Shown: positions 54,594-61,054 of the stretch, one piece after another
Numbering within the stretch: position 1 is the stretch's first letter
Layout of the letters: each line of letters starts with the position of its first letter
Assembly: GCF_011044995.1 (NCBI RefSeq)
Contig: NZ_JAAKZW010000005.1
Location: 1 to 64,000 of the forward strand
DNA length: 64,000 nt
Source: Streptomyces mesophilus
GTDB taxonomy: Bacteria; Actinomycetota; Actinomycetes; Streptomycetales; Streptomycetaceae
Direction of reading: 5' to 3'
Made by a program: the position numbers and the translations under genes
The notes under the pieces: model-generated
Databases searched by the model: none
Told to the model about the DNA's origin: nothing
Seen by the model: only the letters and a program-made list of their open reading frames with translations

Positions 54594-55277
54594 TCAGCGC
54601 GACCTGAGCGTCACCGGCACGTTGGGGCAGCCCTGCGCCACCTCGGTGAGCTTCACCGCCTCCAGGAAGTCAACGGTCAAGCCCCAGCGCAGCTTTGTGA
54701 GCACCCAGTCCGTGATGTACGCGCAGCGGGAGGCCTCATAGGGCGGCAGCCAGCCGGCCGGATCCCGGCCCGCCTTCTCTCTGTGCGTCTCTGCCGTGAC
54801 CGCGGTCAGAGTCGCCTGCGCGGCGAGGTCGTTCGCGTAGGCCTCCCGCTTGGCCGCATCCCACGTGTACGCACCTGACGCCCAGGCCTCCTCGAGCGGC
54901 ACGACGTGCTCGACGACAAGCCGGCGGGCCGGATCGCCCGTCACCGGCCGGTCGTCGTACCACGAGTACCACTGCCCGGATGCGATCACGCACCCCTCAT
55001 CGACCCGCACGGGGCCGACCGCCTCCGCCCTGAGGACCTCGGCGCGGGTGTCGCATCCGTCGAAATCGGCGTCCGCCCAGCGCCCGAACGCGCTCCGCTC
55101 GAAGCCGGTCCCGTGTGCGGACATCACTCCCAGCAGCTGCACCGCCTTGCGGAGTTGCACACGCGGCACCGGATCCGCCGCCACCTCCGCCGTCGGGCCC
55201 GCGGTCGCCGGGAACCACACACCCGCCAGAGCCAGCAGCGCGAGAGCCGTACACCACAACCGGAAAGTTCTGATCAT
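54594..55277 (-). CDS. Secreted HNH nuclease (DUF1524-like)
   Basis: 227 residues from the ATG at 55277. Signal peptide to about residue 26 (ATAGPTAEV). The nuclease core carries RRLVVEHVVPLEEAWASGA (the EHVVP variant of DHVVP), NDLAAQATLTAVTAETHREKAGRDPAGWLPP and CAYITDWVLTK: the H...N...H arrangement of DUF1524/HNH extracellular nucleases. It probably degrades DNA outside the cell. It is divergent from the vanK leader and is not part of the resistance cluster. Confidence 0.88.
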   Translation of the reverse strand: MIRTFRLWCTALALLALAGVWFPATAGPTAEVAADPVPRVQLRKAVQLLGVMSAHGTGFERSAFGRWADADFDGCDTRAEVLRAEAVGPVRVDEGCVIASGQWYSWYDDRPVTGDPARRLVVEHVVPLEEAWASGAYTWDAAKREAYANDLAAQATLTAVTAETHREKAGRDPAGWLPPYEASRCAYITDWVLTKLRWGLTVDFLEAVKLTEVAQGCPNVPVTLRSR

Positions 55278-55421
55278 CCGCCCCGTCTATCCGACCCGCC
55301 CACCCCGGCACCACGGACGACACGGCCGCGTACGCCAAATCGACGCGCCATGCGCCCACCCGGACGACACCACCCACAGGCCTCGCGCGGCCTGACGGCC
55401 TCATCGGGCGCGGCATCGGCG

Positions 55422-55451
55422 CATATCGTCGGCGTATCGAAATCCGCATAC
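55422..55451 (+). promoter_or_regulatory. VanR-type box upstream of vanK
   Basis: A 30-bp element beginning CATATCGTCGGCGTATCG and ending CGCATAC. It is nearly identical to those at 58306-58335 (vanH) and 58224-58253 (murF, inverted), and lies exactly 34 nt before an ATG, as in the other two. Assigned to VanR by context. Confidence 0.75.
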
Positions 55452-55485
55452 CCTCCGGCAACATCACGCTGCTTTGACTGGGGGC

Positions 55486-55575
55486 ATGTCGTACAGCGAA
55501 CCAGCACGCACCGCGCCCCGGACTCCGCCGAACGCGCCCACGGAACACGCCGAAGCGAAGGCGAGGGCCCTGTGA
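55486..55575 (+). CDS. 29-codon leader ORF of vanK
   Basis: Begins MSYSEPARTAPR, similar to the VanH N-terminus MTSTEPVRTAVR at the same positions. It has 29 codons, then TGA at 55573-55575, which overlaps the GTG start of vanK as GTGA. It starts exactly 34 nt after the VanR-type box. It may be translated as a coupling leader, or the ATG may be a passenger inside a duplicated promoter. Translation is unproven. Confidence 0.5.
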   Translation: MSYSEPARTAPRTPPNAPTEHAEAKARAL

Positions 55576-56735
55576 GCCGGACTGCTCATCAGCGGGAGGT
55601 GGCGGGTGCGGGGCTGAGCGTGTGGGCGATCACGGCCGCCGAGTACGCGGCGTTCGTGCGGGCGCAGCCGTCGGTCAGCTTTCTGCAGACGCCGGCGTGG
55701 GGCCGGGTCAAGACCGAGTGGCGCAGCGAGTATCTCGGGTGGTTCGACGGAGGGCAGTTGGCCGGTGCCGGGCTGGTGCTGCACCGGCCGGTGCCGCGAC
55801 TAGACCGCTACACGCTCGCGTATCTGCCGCAAGGCCCGGTCATCGACTGGAGCGGTGAGATCGAGGCGTGGCTCGACCCGCTGGCGGTCTATCTGAAGGC
55901 ACATGGCGCGTTTGCTATACGTCTCGGTCCGCCGGTGCGTACCGCCGTCTGGAGCGCCGCCCAGGTCAAGGAGGGTATCGCCGACCCTCGCCGGAAGCGG
56001 CTCACGGACATGGCGAGCCTGACGGACGACCCGGTCGGGGTCCACGTGACCACGCAACTGCGCCATGCCGGCTGGCTGCCGCAGAGTCCGGAGGACGGGT
56101 TCGGGGCCGGGCAGCCGCAGTTCACGTATGAGATGCCGCTGGCCGGCCGGTCCGAGGACGATGTGCTGCGCGGTATGAACCAGCAGTGGCGTCGCAATAT
56201 CAAGAAGGCTGCCAAGGAAGGGGTCGAGGTCACGGTCGGCGACGTCACCGCCGGCGAGGACCTGAAGGCCTTTCACGACCTCTACGTGCACACGGCCGAG
56301 CGCGACCGGTTCACTCCCCGGCCGCTGCACTACTTCGCCACCATGTTCGCCGAGATGAGCGCGGAGGCGCCCGAGCGGATCAAGCTCTATCAGGCCCGGC
56401 ACCAGGGCGAACTGGTGGCGGCCACGATCCTGGTGCGCGTCGGCGGTCACGCCTGGTACCTGTACGGCGCTTCCTCGACCGCGAAACGCGAAGTGCGGGG
56501 CTCCAACGCCTGCCAGTGGGCGATGATCCGCGACGCGCTGGCGGCCGGGTGCGACCTCTACGATCTGCGCGGCATCACGCCCACCCTCGATGCCGACGAC
56601 CCGCATGTCGGGCTGATCCAGTTCAAGGTCGGTACCGGCGGCCAGGCGGTGCGGTACGCCGGGGAGTGGGATCTGCCGCTGCGGCCGATGGTGTACCGCG
56701 CCTTCGATCTGTACATGAGGCGACGCGGGCGCTGA
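55572..56735 (+). CDS. vanK: FemX/VanK peptidoglycan branching enzyme
   Basis: 387 residues from the GTG at 55572. The protein is a two-GNAT-domain aminoacyltransferase: SFLQTPAWGRVKTEWRSEYLGWF, LAYLPQGPVIDW, RGMNQQWRRNIKKAAKEGVEV, LYQARHQGELVAATILVRVGGHAWYLYGASS and YDLRGITPTLD ... FKVGTGGQAVRYAGEWDLP. VanK adds the branch glycine to lysine or DAP of precursors that end in D-Ala-D-Lac, which the housekeeping FemX cannot use. Its position with vanHAX makes the specific call better than generic FemX. An SD-like GAAGGCGAGGG precedes the GTG, and coupling to the leader ORF is likely. Confidence 0.9.
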   Translation: MSRTAHQREVAGAGLSVWAITAAEYAAFVRAQPSVSFLQTPAWGRVKTEWRSEYLGWFDGGQLAGAGLVLHRPVPRLDRYTLAYLPQGPVIDWSGEIEAWLDPLAVYLKAHGAFAIRLGPPVRTAVWSAAQVKEGIADPRRKRLTDMASLTDDPVGVHVTTQLRHAGWLPQSPEDGFGAGQPQFTYEMPLAGRSEDDVLRGMNQQWRRNIKKAAKEGVEVTVGDVTAGEDLKAFHDLYVHTAERDRFTPRPLHYFATMFAEMSAEAPERIKLYQARHQGELVAATILVRVGGHAWYLYGASSTAKREVRGSNACQWAMIRDALAAGCDLYDLRGITPTLDADDPHVGLIQFKVGTGGQAVRYAGEWDLPLRPMVYRAFDLYMRRRGR

Positions 56736-56743
56736 GCCCCAAT

Positions 56744-56776
56744 CCGCCGCCCTGCCGAACTACTCGAGGGCGGCGG
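56744..56776. terminator. Bidirectional terminator
   Basis: CCGCCGCCCT (56744-56753) pairs with AGGGCGGCGG (56767-56776), between convergent vanK and murF and partly inside the murF 3' end. Confidence 0.7.
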
Positions 56777-58103
56777 CGACTTCGTCGAGGCGGGCTCCGC
56801 GGGATGCCTTGACCAGCACCACGTCCTTGGCGGCGAGCCGGCCGCGCAGCCAGTCGACCGCGGCGTCGTTGTCGGCGAGCACCACGGCCCGCTCCCCCGC
56901 CCCGTCGGCGATCGGCCGCGCGCGCTCGCCGATCACGGCCACCACGTCGGCGCGGGAGGCGGCGTACTCCCCGATGGCCCGGTGCTCCGAGGCGCTGTCG
57001 GCGCCGAGTTCGAGCATGTCGCCGAGTACGGCGATGCGGCGCCCGCCGTCGATGGCCGCGAGGGCGTCCAAGGCGGCGCGGGTGGAGTCGGGGTTGGCGT
57101 TGTAGGAGTCGTTGAGGAGGGTTGCGCCGCAGGCGAGTTGGCGCAGTTCCATGCGCCAACGCGACAGCGAGGCGGTCGCAAGCGCCGTGGCGGCCGCGGC
57201 GAGCGGGATGCCTGCTGCCAGACCCACCGCCGCGGCGGCCGAGGCGTTCAGCGCCTGGTGGGCTCCGACGAGCGGCAGGGTCAACGGAGTCGAGGCGTGG
57301 GCGGTCCGCAGGGTGCAGGACGGCCTGCCCGAACCGTCGAGCACCGGATCGAGGATGCGTACATCGGCATGCTCTGCCCGGCCGAACGTCAGCACTGGGC
57401 CTTCGGTGAGCGCACGCATCGCGATCACCCGGGGATCGTCGGCATTGAGGACGGCGATACCGCCGGCTGCGAGCCCCCGCACCATCTCGCCTTTGGCCTG
57501 CGCGATGGCCGCGCGGGACCCGAACTCGCCCAAGTGGGCCTGCCCGACGTTCAGTACGACGCCGATGTCGGGCGCGACCAAGCCGGTGAGGTGGGCGATG
57601 TCACCGACGTGGCGAGCCCCCATCTCCAGGACGAGACAGCGGGTGTCCGCGTCCGCGCGCAGCATGGTGAGCGGCACGCCGAGCTCGTTGTTCAGCGAAC
57701 CGATGGTGGCGATGGTCGGCGCGGCACTCGAAAGCACCGCTGCGATCAGGTCCTTGGTGCCGGTCTTGCCCTGCGAACCGGTCACGCCCACCACCGTCAG
57801 ACCCGGGCGCAGCCGGGCCACGACATGGGCGGCCAGTCGCTGCAGCGCGGCCTGGACATCCTGGACGACGACCGTCGGCAGCGGAGTGGCGCGGGAGCCG
57901 AGTACGGCCACTGCGCCGGCCCGGCCCGCCGCGGCGGCGTAGTCGTGACCGTCGACGTTCTCGCCGCTGAAGGCGACGAACAGGCCGCCGGGGTCCGCCT
58001 GCCGGCTGTCGAGCGTGGCCGGCGCGGTCACCGTCACCGTGCCGTCGCCCTCCACGGTCCCGCCGACCATCTCGGCGATCTCGCGCAGGCTGAGCGGGAT
58101 CAC
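56760..58103 (-). CDS. murF: MurF-type UDP-MurNAc-tripeptide ligase in the van cluster
   Basis: 447 residues from the GTG at 58103. Mur-ligase domains are complete: N-terminal [12 protein letters not shown], ATPase [37 protein letters not shown], the [11 protein letters not shown] block specific for MurF, and a C-terminal domain with [10 protein letters not shown]. It adds D-Ala-D-X to the tripeptide precursor; here a preference for D-Ala-D-Lac is inferred from context. It is transcribed leftward from its own inverted VanR-type box and overlaps a 29-codon leader by GTGA. No good SD precedes the GTG, so coupling seems needed. A second murF beside vanHAX is known in some glycopeptide producers (from memory). 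Confidence 0.92.
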
Positions 58104-58189
58104 GCCGACGTCCCGACGGTGCGCGGGAGGCCGAGCCGGAGCGGTCCGGCCAAGAGGGCAGGGGCGATGGCTCGTTCGCTGGAAGTCAT
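58100..58189 (-). CDS. 29-codon leader ORF of murF
   Basis: Begins [10 protein letters not shown] (compare VanH MTSTEPVRTA), has 29 codons and ends with TGA at 58102-58100, overlapping the murF GTG as GTGA. Its ATG lies exactly 34 nt after the inverted VanR-type box. Length, spacing and overlap are the same as at vanK, while most of the peptide sequence after residue 5 is different. Confidence 0.5.
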
Positions 58190-58223
58190 GACTTCAGGCA
58201 AAGGGGCACGGTGTTGTCCGCGC

Positions 58224-58253
58224 GTATGAGTTTTTCGATACGCCGACGATATG
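58224..58253 (-). promoter_or_regulatory. VanR-type box for murF (inverted)
   Basis: Read on the minus strand it starts CATATCGTCGGCGTATCG and ends CTCATAC. It matches the vanK box in all but a few positions. It is back-to-back with the vanH box 52 bp away, so one region drives murF leftward and vanHAX rightward. Confidence 0.75.
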
Positions 58254-58305
58254 TGGACGCATCCCAGAGGAATCGTTCAACTCGATGCGGCTCACGCCCT
58301 ACCCG

Positions 58306-58335
58306 CATATCGTCCTCGTATCAAAAAGCGCATAC
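58306..58335 (+). promoter_or_regulatory. VanR-type box for vanHAX
   Basis: Starts CATATCGTCCTCGTATCA and ends GCGCATAC, with 34 nt to the vanH ATG. A TTGACT hexamer lies just before the ATG (also in the vanK copy), which could be a -35 element, so the transcript may start inside the annotated N-terminus. Confidence 0.75.
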
Positions 58336-58369
58336 GTTGCGGCAACACCGTGTCTCGTTGACTGTCGGC

Positions 58370-59410
58370 ATGACCTCCACCGAACCAGTCCGCACAGCGG
58401 TCCGCCGCACGCGAGCTCCGGATTCGTCGTCCACTCGCGCGCTGTCGACCACGGGAATCACCGTCTATGGATGCGGGCAGGACGAAGCCGTCCTGTTTCG
58501 GGAGTTGGCGCCTGGATTCGGCATCGTTCCCACCCTCACCGAGGCTGCTGTGTCGGAGTCCCACGCTGAACTCGCCCGCGGAAACCGGTCCATCAGCGTC
58601 GGCCACAAGACTCCCGTCAGCCGTGCGACGCTCGTCGCTCTGCACCGCGTCGGCGTGCGGCACATCTCCACACGCAGCGTCGGTACCAACCACATCGACC
58701 TCGCTTACGCGGACAGCCTCGGCATTTCCGTCGGGAACGTCTGCTACTCCCCCGACAGCGTGGCCGACTACACGCTGATGCTGATGCTGATGGCGATACG
58801 CGACGCGAAGTCCACCATCCGCCGTGGCGCCGTTCACGATTACCGGTTGAACGAGATACGCGGGAAGGAACTGCGCGATCTGACCGTCGGAGTGATCGGA
58901 ACGGGGCGTATCGGGTCGGCGGTCATGGACCGGCTGCGGGGTTTCGGCTGCCGCATACTCGCCAACTCCCATGGCCCGCACACCGCGGCCGCGTACGTGC
59001 CGCTCGATGAACTGCTCCGGCAGAGCGACATCGTGACGCTCCACACTCCGTTGACCGCACAGACACACCACCTTCTCGACCGTCGACGTATCGAGCAGAT
59101 GAAGCGCGGAGCGTTCGTCATCAACACCGGACGCGGGCCCCTGCTCGACACCGAGGCCTTGCTTTCCGGGCTGGAAAGCGGCCGGCTTGCCGGTGCTGCC
59201 CTCGATGTCCTCGAAGGCGAGGAAGGAATCTTCTACGCCGACTGCAGGGAAAAGGACATCGAGAGCAAAGCACTTCTTCGGCTTCAGGAAATGCCGAACG
59301 TCCTCATCACCCCGCACACCGCGTACTACACGGACCACGCACTCAGCGACACAGTCAAGAACTCTCTCGCCAACTGCCTTGAATTCGAAAGCAGGAACCA
59401 GCATGGATAA
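58370..59410 (+). CDS. vanH: D-lactate dehydrogenase VanH
   Basis: 346 residues from the ATG at 58370. The body begins GITVYGC at residue 29, as in enterococcal VanH. VSVGHKTP-type RSISVGHKTPVSRATL, STRSVGTNHIDLAY, the NAD loop VGVIGTGRIGSAVMDRLRGFGC, INTGRGPLLDT and LITPHTAYYTDHALSDTV mark a D-2-hydroxyacid dehydrogenase with catalytic Arg, Glu and His. It reduces pyruvate to D-lactate for VanA. The first 28-29 residues (MTSTEPVRTAVR...) have no counterpart in enterococcal VanH and match the separate leader ORFs of vanK and murF. It overlaps vanA by 8 nt. Confidence 0.95.
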   Translation: MTSTEPVRTAVRRTRAPDSSSTRALSTTGITVYGCGQDEAVLFRELAPGFGIVPTLTEAAVSESHAELARGNRSISVGHKTPVSRATLVALHRVGVRHISTRSVGTNHIDLAYADSLGISVGNVCYSPDSVADYTLMLMLMAIRDAKSTIRRGAVHDYRLNEIRGKELRDLTVGVIGTGRIGSAVMDRLRGFGCRILANSHGPHTAAAYVPLDELLRQSDIVTLHTPLTAQTHHLLDRRRIEQMKRGAFVINTGRGPLLDTEALLSGLESGRLAGAALDVLEGEEGIFYADCREKDIESKALLRLQEMPNVLITPHTAYYTDHALSDTVKNSLANCLEFESRNQHG

Positions 59411-60449
59411 GCTCAAGGTCGGCATCATTTTCGGCGGCTCTTCCGAAGAGCACCCCATCTCCGTCAAGTCGGCTCAGGAAGTCGCGAAGAACCTCGATCT
59501 CGCGAAGTACGAACCGTTCTACATCGGCATCACGAAGAGCGGCGCCTGGCTGCTGTGCGAGGGCCCCGACGCGCAGTGGGAGACCGGGGACTGCCGTCCT
59601 GCCGCACTGTCGCCGGACCGGACGGTGGGTGGGCTGCTCGTCCTCGACCAGGGAAAATACGACACGATCAGGTTGGACGTCGTCCTGCCGGTGCTGCATG
59701 GCACGCTCGGCGAGGACGGTGCGATGCAGGGGCTGCTCGAGCTTTCCGGCATTCCGTACGCGGGCTGCGATGTGCAGAGTTCCGCTCTCTGCATGGACAA
59801 GTCCCTTGCGTACACCGTGGCCCGCAGCGCGGGGATAGCCACGCCGAACTTCTGGACTGTGGCGGAAATCGCCGACATCGATCCGGACACCTTCACCTAT
59901 CCGGTGTTCGTGAAGCCGGCGCGTTCCGGTTCCTCGTTCGGGGTCAGCAAGGTGTCCGGGAAGGATGAACTGGCGAGCGCCATCGATTCCGCGCGGCAGT
60001 ACGACGCGAAGGTGCTGATCGAAGAGGCCGTGGTCGGCAGCGAAATCGGTTGCGCCATCTTGGGTGACGGCCACGGCACCGACCTGATGGCGGGCGAAGT
60101 GGATCGGATCGCCCTGTCCCACGGCTTCTTCCGGATCCATCAGGAATCGGCCCCTGAACAGGGTTCCGACAACTCGACGGCGATCGTCCCCGCCGATATT
60201 CCCGCCGCATCCCGTGCTCTCGTCCAGGAGACCGCGAAGTCCGTCTACCGCGCCCTGGGCTGCGGCGGCCTGGCCCGCGTGGACCTGTTCCTCAAGAAGG
60301 ACGGAAGCGTCGTACTCAACGAGGTCAACACCTTTCCCGGAATGACCTCGTACAGCCGCTATCCGCGGATGATGGCCGCCGCGGGCGTATCGGTTTCCGA
60401 AGTGATCGACCGGATGGTGACGTCGGCGATGGCAGGAGGCAGCAGGTGA
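59403..60449 (+). CDS. vanA: D-alanine--D-lactate ligase VanA
   Basis: A 348-residue ATP-grasp ligase. KVGIIFGGSSEEHPIS, HGTLGEDGAMQGLLELSGIPYAG, FVKPARSGSSFGVSKV, VARVDLF-type LARVDLFLKKDGSVVLNEVNTFPGMTSYSRYP are all standard. The omega-loop reads GFFRIHQE, with His246 equivalent to VanA His244, the residue that marks preference for D-lactate over D-alanine. It makes the D-Ala-D-Lac depsipeptide that lowers vancomycin affinity. The start at 59403 overlaps the vanH stop, and vanX overlaps its own stop by 4 nt. Confidence 0.97.
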   Translation: MDKLKVGIIFGGSSEEHPISVKSAQEVAKNLDLAKYEPFYIGITKSGAWLLCEGPDAQWETGDCRPAALSPDRTVGGLLVLDQGKYDTIRLDVVLPVLHGTLGEDGAMQGLLELSGIPYAGCDVQSSALCMDKSLAYTVARSAGIATPNFWTVAEIADIDPDTFTYPVFVKPARSGSSFGVSKVSGKDELASAIDSARQYDAKVLIEEAVVGSEIGCAILGDGHGTDLMAGEVDRIALSHGFFRIHQESAPEQGSDNSTAIVPADIPAASRALVQETAKSVYRALGCGGLARVDLFLKKDGSVVLNEVNTFPGMTSYSRYPRMMAAAGVSVSEVIDRMVTSAMAGGSR

Positions 60450-61054
60450 ACGACGATTTCGTATTCGTCGACGAGCATGTCCCCGGCATTCGCTGGGATG
60501 CCAAGTACGCCACCTGGGACAATTTCACCGGCAAGCCGGTGGACGGGTACCGGGCGAATCGCATCGTCGGCACCCGGGCCCTGTGCAGCGCGCTGGAAGA
60601 AGCGCAGGCGAGGGCCGAATACCTCGGCTTCGGGCTTGTGCTGTGGGACGGCTATCGGCCCCAGCGTGCCGTCGACTGCTTCCTGCGCTGGTCGGAACTG
60701 CCGGAGGACGGCCGTACGAAGCCGCGGCACTATCCGAATATCGAGCGGGCCGAGATGTTCGAGAAGGGGTACGTGGCCACCAAATCCGGGCACAGCCGCG
60801 GGAGCACGGTCGATGTGACGCTGTACCACTTGGACACCGGCGAGCTCGCCGCCATGGGCGGCGGCCATGACCTGATGGATTCCGTCTCGCATCATGGCGC
60901 CACGGGCGTCAGGCAGTTCGAAGCGCGGAACCGGCATCTCCTCCGTTCCGTCATGGAGGGGTCGGGATTCAGTGCGTACGACTGCGAGTGGTGGCACTAC
61001 ACCCTCAAGGACGAGCCATACCCCGACACGTATTTCGATGTCCCCATCGCCTGA
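60446..61054 (+). CDS. vanX: D-Ala-D-Ala dipeptidase VanX
   Basis: A 202-residue zinc dipeptidase starting with the GTG at 60446 (GCAGGAGGCAGCAG upstream). Zinc ligands His116 and Asp123 (SGHSRGSTVDVTL) and His184, with Glu181 as base (EWWHY), and Arg71 in WDGYRPQRAV fall at exactly the VanX positions. It removes D-Ala-D-Ala so that only D-Ala-D-Lac enters precursors. It is the last gene of vanHAX; a terminator follows. Confidence 0.97.
   Translation: MNDDFVFVDEHVPGIRWDAKYATWDNFTGKPVDGYRANRIVGTRALCSALEEAQARAEYLGFGLVLWDGYRPQRAVDCFLRWSELPEDGRTKPRHYPNIERAEMFEKGYVATKSGHSRGSTVDVTLYHLDTGELAAMGGGHDLMDSVSHHGATGVRQFEARNRHLLRSVMEGSGFSAYDCEWWHYTLKDEPYPDTYFDVPIA

Follow-up and report, generated by a model that had tools for sequence, protein, structure and literature searches.

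The van gene cluster of Streptomyces mesophilus raises the question of what exactly is repeated when three of its genes, vanK, murF and vanH, are each preceded by the same DNA box, the same spacer and the same first codons, these codons being part of the gene itself in vanH and of a separate short open reading frame (ORF), the leader, in vanK and murF. The window, i.e. the whole stretch of 64,000 nucleotides (nt) analysed here, is part of contig C451 of a 9.0 Mb genome in 505 contigs. The unit common to the three genes is probably a VanR-activated promoter that yields a leaderless mRNA, with the gene either fused to the first codons or coupled to the leader by an RTGA (ATGA or GTGA) overlap of stop and start codon.

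All three cassettes of box, fixed spacer and ATG are found as a preliminary description of the window had proposed them, with a box of 31 base pairs (bp) and 35 nt from box to ATG in each (Table 1); the 34 nt given there result if the box ends one base later. Both leaders consist of 29 codons plus TGA and form GTGA with the GTG of vanK and murF, respectively, and the vanH segment is joined in frame, with the motif GITVYGC at codon 29. The likeness of the first residues among the three cassettes, likewise noted before, is real and extends to biased synonymous codons. With a position weight matrix (PWM) grown from the three boxes, these are the only sites of the window scoring above 8, the 99% point of the best background score being -5.4 (222 stretches of 400 nt each, from the loci). 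At up to three mismatches, the box pattern occurs four times in the whole genome, and the reversed control pattern not at all. The fourth box is located upstream of a vanY-like gene on contig C80, beside a vanR-O-like regulator and a vanS-O-like kinase.

Distribution of the cassette

Comparative loci derive from a scan with VanH (best 80 of 220 confirmed relatives, mostly actinobacteria), to which a genus, a phylum and a relatives sample added further loci; the sites fetched from the genus sample are part of all its box-pattern matches. Among 296 distinct boxes above threshold, a start codon (ATG or GTG) is present at 35 nt in 213 and at 36 nt in 64. The fixed box-to-start spacing is therefore general (277 of 296), and the 19 sites with a start codon at neither distance are excluded from later counts. 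The PWM detects a box upstream of 103 of 110 vanH, 31 of 43 vanK-like and 31 of 58 murF matches (duplicates included); seven vanH matches of this first collection have no box above the PWM score. The 12 boxless vanK-like matches comprise eight behind a vanY ORF with a box further upstream and four paralogues at 51-60% identity. Boxless murF matches adjoin vanH, e.g. in L010, L011, L024 and L068.

Clustering of the genes behind the boxes results in vanH (98), vanY (56), vanK (about 39), murF (29), VanZ-like (29) and vanJ (22) families, excluding singletons outside the main families; the newer families were named from one member each via Pfam or NCBIfam. VanZ-like membrane proteins (PF04892 for the L004 member) possess the same box and geometry in L119, L124, L126, L129, L130 and 21 further loci. 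Their cassettes often occur in genomes of the genus sample without a vanH match, and the family may form a separate branch of the regulon.

Of 392 genomes in the genus sample, 173 contain the box pattern and 34 a vanH match at E <= 1e-60; the reversed control has zero matches there. The phylum sample has the pattern in 11 of 396 genomes, five of these from the same genus; the cassette is therefore widespread yet patchy. In actinobacteria the cassette is common and looks old, and the box provides a specific DNA signature for the regulon.

Promoter, start segment and hand-off to the gene

The consensus logos of the sites at 35 nt (223) and 36 nt (70) have equal distances from box to hexamer, the extra base being located between hexamer and start codon; box, a GGCAACA stretch and hexamer keep constant mutual distances in both. 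The hexamer is TTGACT in 172 of 267 sites, and the consensus start codon follows it after 6 or 7 nt (293 sites). A constant distance between box and hexamer combined with a variable gap between hexamer and ATG is the pattern predicted if transcription begins several bases after a -10 element. The -10-like hexamer before the start codon, a mark of leaderless genes, is thus present, its second position being T, not A. For Streptomyces coelicolor, the leaderless state of vanH, vanK and vanR is documented (Table 1 of PMC3160421, citing Hong 2004; PMC4282423), and vanRSJKHAX is induced by vancomycin according to PMC7947799. The printed S. coelicolor 23-mers upstream of vanK and vanH have exact, single matches among the collected loci, both in locus L108 and both at cassette ATGs. 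Over the box and the GGCAACA stretch behind it, CATATCG, CATATCG, CATACG and GCAACA are candidate half-sites, recognised by eye as two pairs with 11 bp within each pair; self-matching yields 0.357 at offset 11, 0.361 at offset 25 and a maximum of 0.416 at offset 18. Position and gene set suggest that VanR binds the box directly.

The start segment of vanH has the consensus ATG ACC TAC AGC GAA CCA GCA CGA ACA GCG GCC, and that of vanK and murF has most of codons 2-7 in common with it. Scored with the vanH profile, 89% of vanK, 96% of murF, 62% of vanY, 69% of VanZ-like but just 14% of vanJ segments surpass 95% of their codon-shuffled versions. The share of A-ending codons at codons 5-9 is 0.519 (1369 scored codons of 293 cassettes), compared with 0.129 (2606 codons) in 662 other ORFs and 0.113 (204 codons) in a heuristic set of 53 other ORFs whose ATG follows a TANNNT box after 6-7 nt. 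CCA represents 53% of proline codons in the start segment versus 4% in the bodies, and GAA reaches 90% versus 34%. Such biased synonymous choice implies that the constraint acts partly on nucleotides, and this nucleotide constraint seems particular to the cassette. Median folding energies of positions +1 to +36 range from -2.6 to -6.0 kcal/mol by family, those of the following 36 nt from -8.4 to -11.9; the controls have -5.3 (vanA) and -10.1 (vanX). With vanA inside the range of the cassettes, weak 5' structure is no more than a possible cause of the A-ending codons.

With the body frames of vanK, murF and vanJ set by tblastn, the 124 cassettes of these genes comprise 61 in-frame fusions, 57 RTGA overlaps, five two-step RTGA hand-offs and one other arrangement. 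The reading path from cassette ATG to gene is continuous in 123; the exception, L073, is without RTGA and has a GTG in frame 7 nt before the stop. In 25 of the 57 overlaps the first ORF is, by motif, a whole or shortened vanY. Wherever the first ORF lies in the third frame (five cases, two of them vanY), a second ORF bridges the distance to the gene. These two-step relays are those of L006 vanK, L009 murF and L141, L154 and L220 vanJ, the second ORF having 3 codons in L009 and 27 in L006. Continuity in 123 of 124 cassettes and the fixed geometry in many actinobacteria bear out the preliminary description in two of its readings, one cassette used three times and a conserved coupling leader.

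Both leaders of the window possess the RTGA overlap typical of stop-start coupling. A Shine-Dalgarno-like (SD-like) motif is present at none of 19 split murF starts and at both of two split vanJ starts, compared with 14% of 422 random RTG, 46 of 83 vanA and 18 of 87 vanX starts. A -10-like hexamer, searched with a pattern fitted to the known hexamers, precedes none of 28 split vanK and murF bodies and 22 of 28 leader ATGs. The split murF starts thus have neither an SD-like motif nor a -10-like hexamer of their own, which makes the leader the sole visible ribosome entry for murF. Small leaderless ORFs are reported to be able to affect the next gene (PMC4965119).

The favoured reading of the cassette is therefore as follows. 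VanR~P would bind the 31-bp box, and probably also the GGCAACA stretch, in the manner of OmpR-type regulators, and RNA polymerase would use the TTGACT-like hexamer as -10 and start at the A of the ATG, presumably also in this strain. As the transcript would begin with AUG, the promoter would be inseparable from the start codon. The A/C-rich, codon-biased segment probably aids initiation by 70S ribosomes on the 5' AUG, with a possible role of the A-ending codons. The gene under the promoter would be either fused to the start segment, as vanH, or placed behind a short leader ORF with RTGA, as vanK and murF, and ribosomes terminating at the leader stop would reinitiate at the gene start. The promoter would in this manner come with a start codon of its own and some nine codons in which the A-ending choice is unusual. 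A wider proposal is offered tentatively, at somewhat less than even confidence: the VanR regulon of Actinobacteria would have taken in at least six unrelated gene families through duplication of an indivisible unit of operator, -10, 5' AUG and start segment. The segment (+4 to about +30) would, through its biased bases, be a dedicated enhancer of leaderless initiation. Promoter capture would have left by-products, namely extended N-termini in VanH, VanK and VanY and short leaders before MurF, VanK and VanJ, and the two-step RTGA relays would reflect selection on ribosome delivery, not on the peptide.

Leader evolution and alternative explanations

A number of observations weigh against the leaderless-promoter reading or parts of it. 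The usual -10 has an A where TTGACT has a T. Of the murF matches, 27 of 58 lack a box in the searched stretch, 26 of them at 73-84% identity; murF is therefore not dependent on the cassette everywhere. The A-ending share at codons 5-9 is raised in the vanA control as well (0.25; vanX 0.041), and in the murF leaders codons 2-10 vary in amino acid about as much as without constraint, the proportion of non-synonymous change (pN) being 0.29 and 0.24 in the two larger groups. In vanK, the constraint on body codons 1-20 (pN 0.26, synonymous proportion pS 0.24) does not exceed that on the leader. An SD-like motif occurs at six of nine split vanK starts, for which the leader may be one of two ribosome routes. 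Continuity by chance is not rare: after deletions of 1-2 nt along 36 short leaders, 65% on average retain a continuous path, in most cases through fusion, compared with 35 of 36 observed at sites that share ancestry. According to PMC9031893, leaderless mRNAs are translated better with CA repeats behind the start codon, and the start segments contain 2.88 CA on average versus 1.32 and 1.39 in controls; as 2.85 are expected from base composition, CA repeats as such were rejected and just A/C-richness is supported. Among published data, the leaderless predictor of PMC3160421 scored vanH just 0.27, and the glycopeptide-responsive genes of S. coelicolor are described as including fewer leaderless transcripts than expected (PMC7947799).

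A vanHp-gusA reporter, for which about 20-fold induction is reported (PMC9779433), has a reverse primer that, located in L108, stops 26 nt short of the vanH ATG, so that the inducible fragment is without the hexamer. It agrees poorly with the hexamer as -10 and fits an alternative with short 5' leaders, in which the transcription start lies inside the box or directly after it, the hexamer has no -10 role and the fixed distance is a spacing between operator and start codon. GGAGG-like letters directly before the ATG of some cassettes agree with such leaders, but they vary among sites and abut the ATG, which is too close for an SD sequence to act. Given the documented leaderless state of S. coelicolor vanK and vanH (PMC3160421) and the hexamer held constantly at 6-7 nt before the ATG in the consensus of 293 sites, short 5' leaders are considered improbable. 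Still less probable, and indeed very unlikely, is a leader peptide acting as regulatory attenuator or as functional small protein, for which a short leaderless-type ORF before a resistance gene can be cited, together with the mycobacterial precedent of cysteine-responsive leaderless ORFs (described in PMC9031893 and PMC9094748). Leader lengths vary from 12 to 58 codons, a separate leader is absent in 61 of 124 cassettes, and no run of a single amino acid is found by eye. Behind codon 10, pN/pS amounts to 0.88 (three vanK leaders), 1.04 (six murF) and 1.43 (four murF), i.e. about 1 in groups that do not include the leaders of the window, so that conserved regulatory codons, as expected of an attenuator, are not found in these three groups; a further group of two murF leaders has zero synonymous changes there. 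The murF body, in comparison, has pN 0.09-0.10 and pS 0.22-0.28 over codons 1-20 in the two larger groups. The leader peptides look near neutral in the groups measured, and a functional peptide is unlikely from both pN/pS and length variation.

The preliminary description also saw in the cassette a mobile module copied from vanH and spliced at a fixed point. Copying was assessed by permutation of similarities within and between loci. For the box these are 0.805 versus 0.780 for vanH-vanY (30 loci), 0.828 versus 0.813 for vanH-vanK (25) and 0.801 versus 0.775 for vanH-murF (19), all three significant, and 0.798 versus 0.813 for vanK-murF (11). Over box, spacer and start segment the excess of vanH with vanK, murF and vanY is just 1.5-3.5 percentage points, and for the start segments p is 0.10 (vanH-vanK), 0.14 (vanH-murF), 0.11 (vanK-murF) and 0.047 (vanH-vanY). 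Cassettes of the same genome are barely more alike than those of different genomes, so the spread over genes looks old. That vanK and murF of this lineage recently received a copy from vanH was accordingly rejected as extremely improbable: box, spacer and first codons are alike in all three, and the excess in box and spacer is significant, but it is small, does not reach significance in the start segments of vanH-vanK, vanH-murF and vanK-murF, and the same pairs of gene and cassette are present in many genera. Mild concerted change or shared base composition may account for the excess. The widely varying leader lengths of vanK and murF contradict splicing at a fixed point in these two genes. 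An unlikely but more plausible origin starts from a vanY-vanK or vanY-vanJ operon whose first gene, vanY, was deleted in place; the leaders would be what is left of it, and the RTGA hand-off would date from the operon. A vanY ORF stands first and overlaps vanK in eight cassettes and vanJ in 19 (17 one-step, two two-step), shortened vanY ORFs precede vanJ in L132 (93 amino acids) and L142 (84 amino acids), and the 34-codon vanJ leader of L196 retains the vanY 3' end PTQDPRTQQ. However, no similarity to vanY is visible by eye in the 3' ends of vanK leaders or in murF leaders; this origin therefore explains some vanJ leaders and may or may not hold for the two leaders of the window. By eye, L132, L142, L163 and L196 display vanY before vanJ at several stages of shortening, all with the RTGA overlap into vanJ. 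The decaying vanY of L132, L142 and L196 shows one route by which a stub can be left after loss of the product.

The 29 codons common to both leaders, proposed before as a shared feature, are unmatched elsewhere: other vanK leaders have 14-52 and other murF leaders 12-58 codons, and none of those listed has 29. This number was rejected as a functional length, and its occurrence in both leaders of the window looks like chance; the vanH body, by contrast, starts most often at codon 29, in 35 of 98 VanH (range 4-43, one not placed). Uniqueness to this strain thus applies to the 29-codon length, and not to spacing and architecture, both of which are general in relatives. The vanK leader of the window aligns with leaders of 34 codons in L004 and L015, apart from a gap of 15 nt, and has the same end GTGAGCCG, L010 being compared over the 3' part alone; the split state of vanK is therefore probably inherited and not a defect of the strain. 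The 3' halves of the vanK leaders of L004, L010, L015 and L174 and of the second ORF of L006 are alike by eye, e.g. in RWxPGC and ADVR. With pN/pS near 1 in the three measured, common descent is the likely cause of this likeness.

Genomic setting and known systems

The features of the cluster are listed in Table 1. The best NCBIfam model of vanH is NF000151 (vanH-Ac1, E=5.9e-169, 561.9 bits, under the cut-off of 750), and the general NCBIfam vanH model is missed by 7 bits. A protein with a GmrSD_C nuclease-type domain (PF07510, E=2.4e-07; 54594-55277, minus strand) adjoins the vanK cassette upstream and has no box. Further matches of murF (67%) and vanK (65%) are found on C102 and C155, respectively; the copies in the window are therefore extra copies. 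Contig C80 groups the vanY-like gene, the regulator, the kinase and a vanJ-like gene. The regulator (L117:6424-7101, Response_reg and Trans_reg_C domains) is nearest to vanR-O (453.9 bits, cut-off 505), so that a VanR homologue with the DNA-binding domain of an OmpR-type regulon is present in the genome. The kinase is nearest to vanS-O (443.1) and the vanJ-like gene to vanJ (458.9), both likewise under the NCBI cut-offs, and all three labels are for this reason names by similarity.

Table 1. Cassettes and van genes in the 64,000-nt window
Feature	Position	Strand	Remarks
31-bp box of vanK	55420..55450	+	putative VanR operator; PWM score 52.8
TTGACT hexamer of vanK	55474..55479	+	putative -10 of vanK promoter
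vanK leader ORF, 29 codons	55486..55575	+	ATG is putative transcription start; TGA overlaps vanK GTG
vanK (FemAB family)	55572..56735	+	GTG start; PF02388 E=1.5e-53
murF (D-Ala-D-X adding ligase)	56760..58103	-	GTG start, no SD-like motif; TIGR01143 E=1.7e-122, passes cut-off
murF leader ORF, 29 codons	58100..58189	-	stop overlaps murF GTG
TTGCCT hexamer of murF	58196..58201	-	putative -10 of murF promoter
31-bp box of murF	58225..58255	-	PWM score 52.1
31-bp box of vanH	58304..58334	+	PWM score 43.8
TTGACT hexamer of vanH	58358..58363	+	putative -10 of vanH promoter
vanH in-frame start segment, 28 codons	58370..58453	+	vanH body from codon 29
vanH, fused to start segment	58370..59410	+	PF02826 E=4.1e-50
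vanA (D-Ala-D-Lac ligase)	59403..60449	+	NF000206 E=1e-178, passes cut-off; start overlaps vanH stop
vanX	60446..61054	+	NF033115 E=1.8e-118, passes cut-off; GTGA overlap with vanA stop

The vanRSJKHAX cluster of S. coelicolor (SCO3589-3596) has the same gene set, and the last 12 nt before its vanK ATG (TTGACTGGGGGC) are identical in the window. In L108, where the printed S. coelicolor sequences match, vanK forms an in-frame fusion with the start segment and adjoins vanH; in the window, by contrast, vanK is split, murF is split with its own cassette, and vanRS, vanJ and vanY are on another contig. The 5'-terminal upstream ORFs (uORFs) of Escherichia coli (ptrB, rhaB and others; PMC4965119) resemble the cassette in an AUG at or near the mRNA 5' end, a short ORF and an effect on the next gene, and the rhaB uORF has an ATGA overlap like the RTGA described here. 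Their genes, however, are SD-led, and the ptrB effect needs the AUG and not translation of the peptide according to the authors (PMC4965119). The cysteine-responsive leaderless short ORFs of mycobacteria (Canestrari 2020, after PMC9031893 and PMC9094748) are, as here, leaderless ORFs before an operon in Actinobacteria, whereas the van leaders have no conserved codon run and a peptide near neutral where measured. Ordinary operon coupling by 4-nt ATGA or GTGA uses the same type of overlap, also at vanA-vanX of the window; unlike there, the first cistron of the cassette is a poorly conserved stub of 12-58 codons starting at the cassette ATG, which would be kept because the promoter brings its own start codon.

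Leaderless vanH and vanK, control by VanRS, stop-start coupling and small leaderless ORFs are each known singly. Their combination, a unit from operator to codon 9 across six families that contacts its genes by fusion, RTGA or relay, was not found in print in a search of titles and abstract openings, and the words 'promoter', 'operator' and 'leader' are absent from the consulted main text of a comparative genomics study of van genes (PMC8698665). If true, the leaderless-promoter reading would explain the variable N-terminal extension of actinomycete VanH and the tiny ORFs before vanK, murF and vanJ. The cassette would then represent a natural, phylogenetically replicated test bed for the sequence behind a 5' AUG that favours leaderless translation, and would also bear on whether a leaderless ORF can pass ribosomes to a gene without a Shine-Dalgarno sequence.

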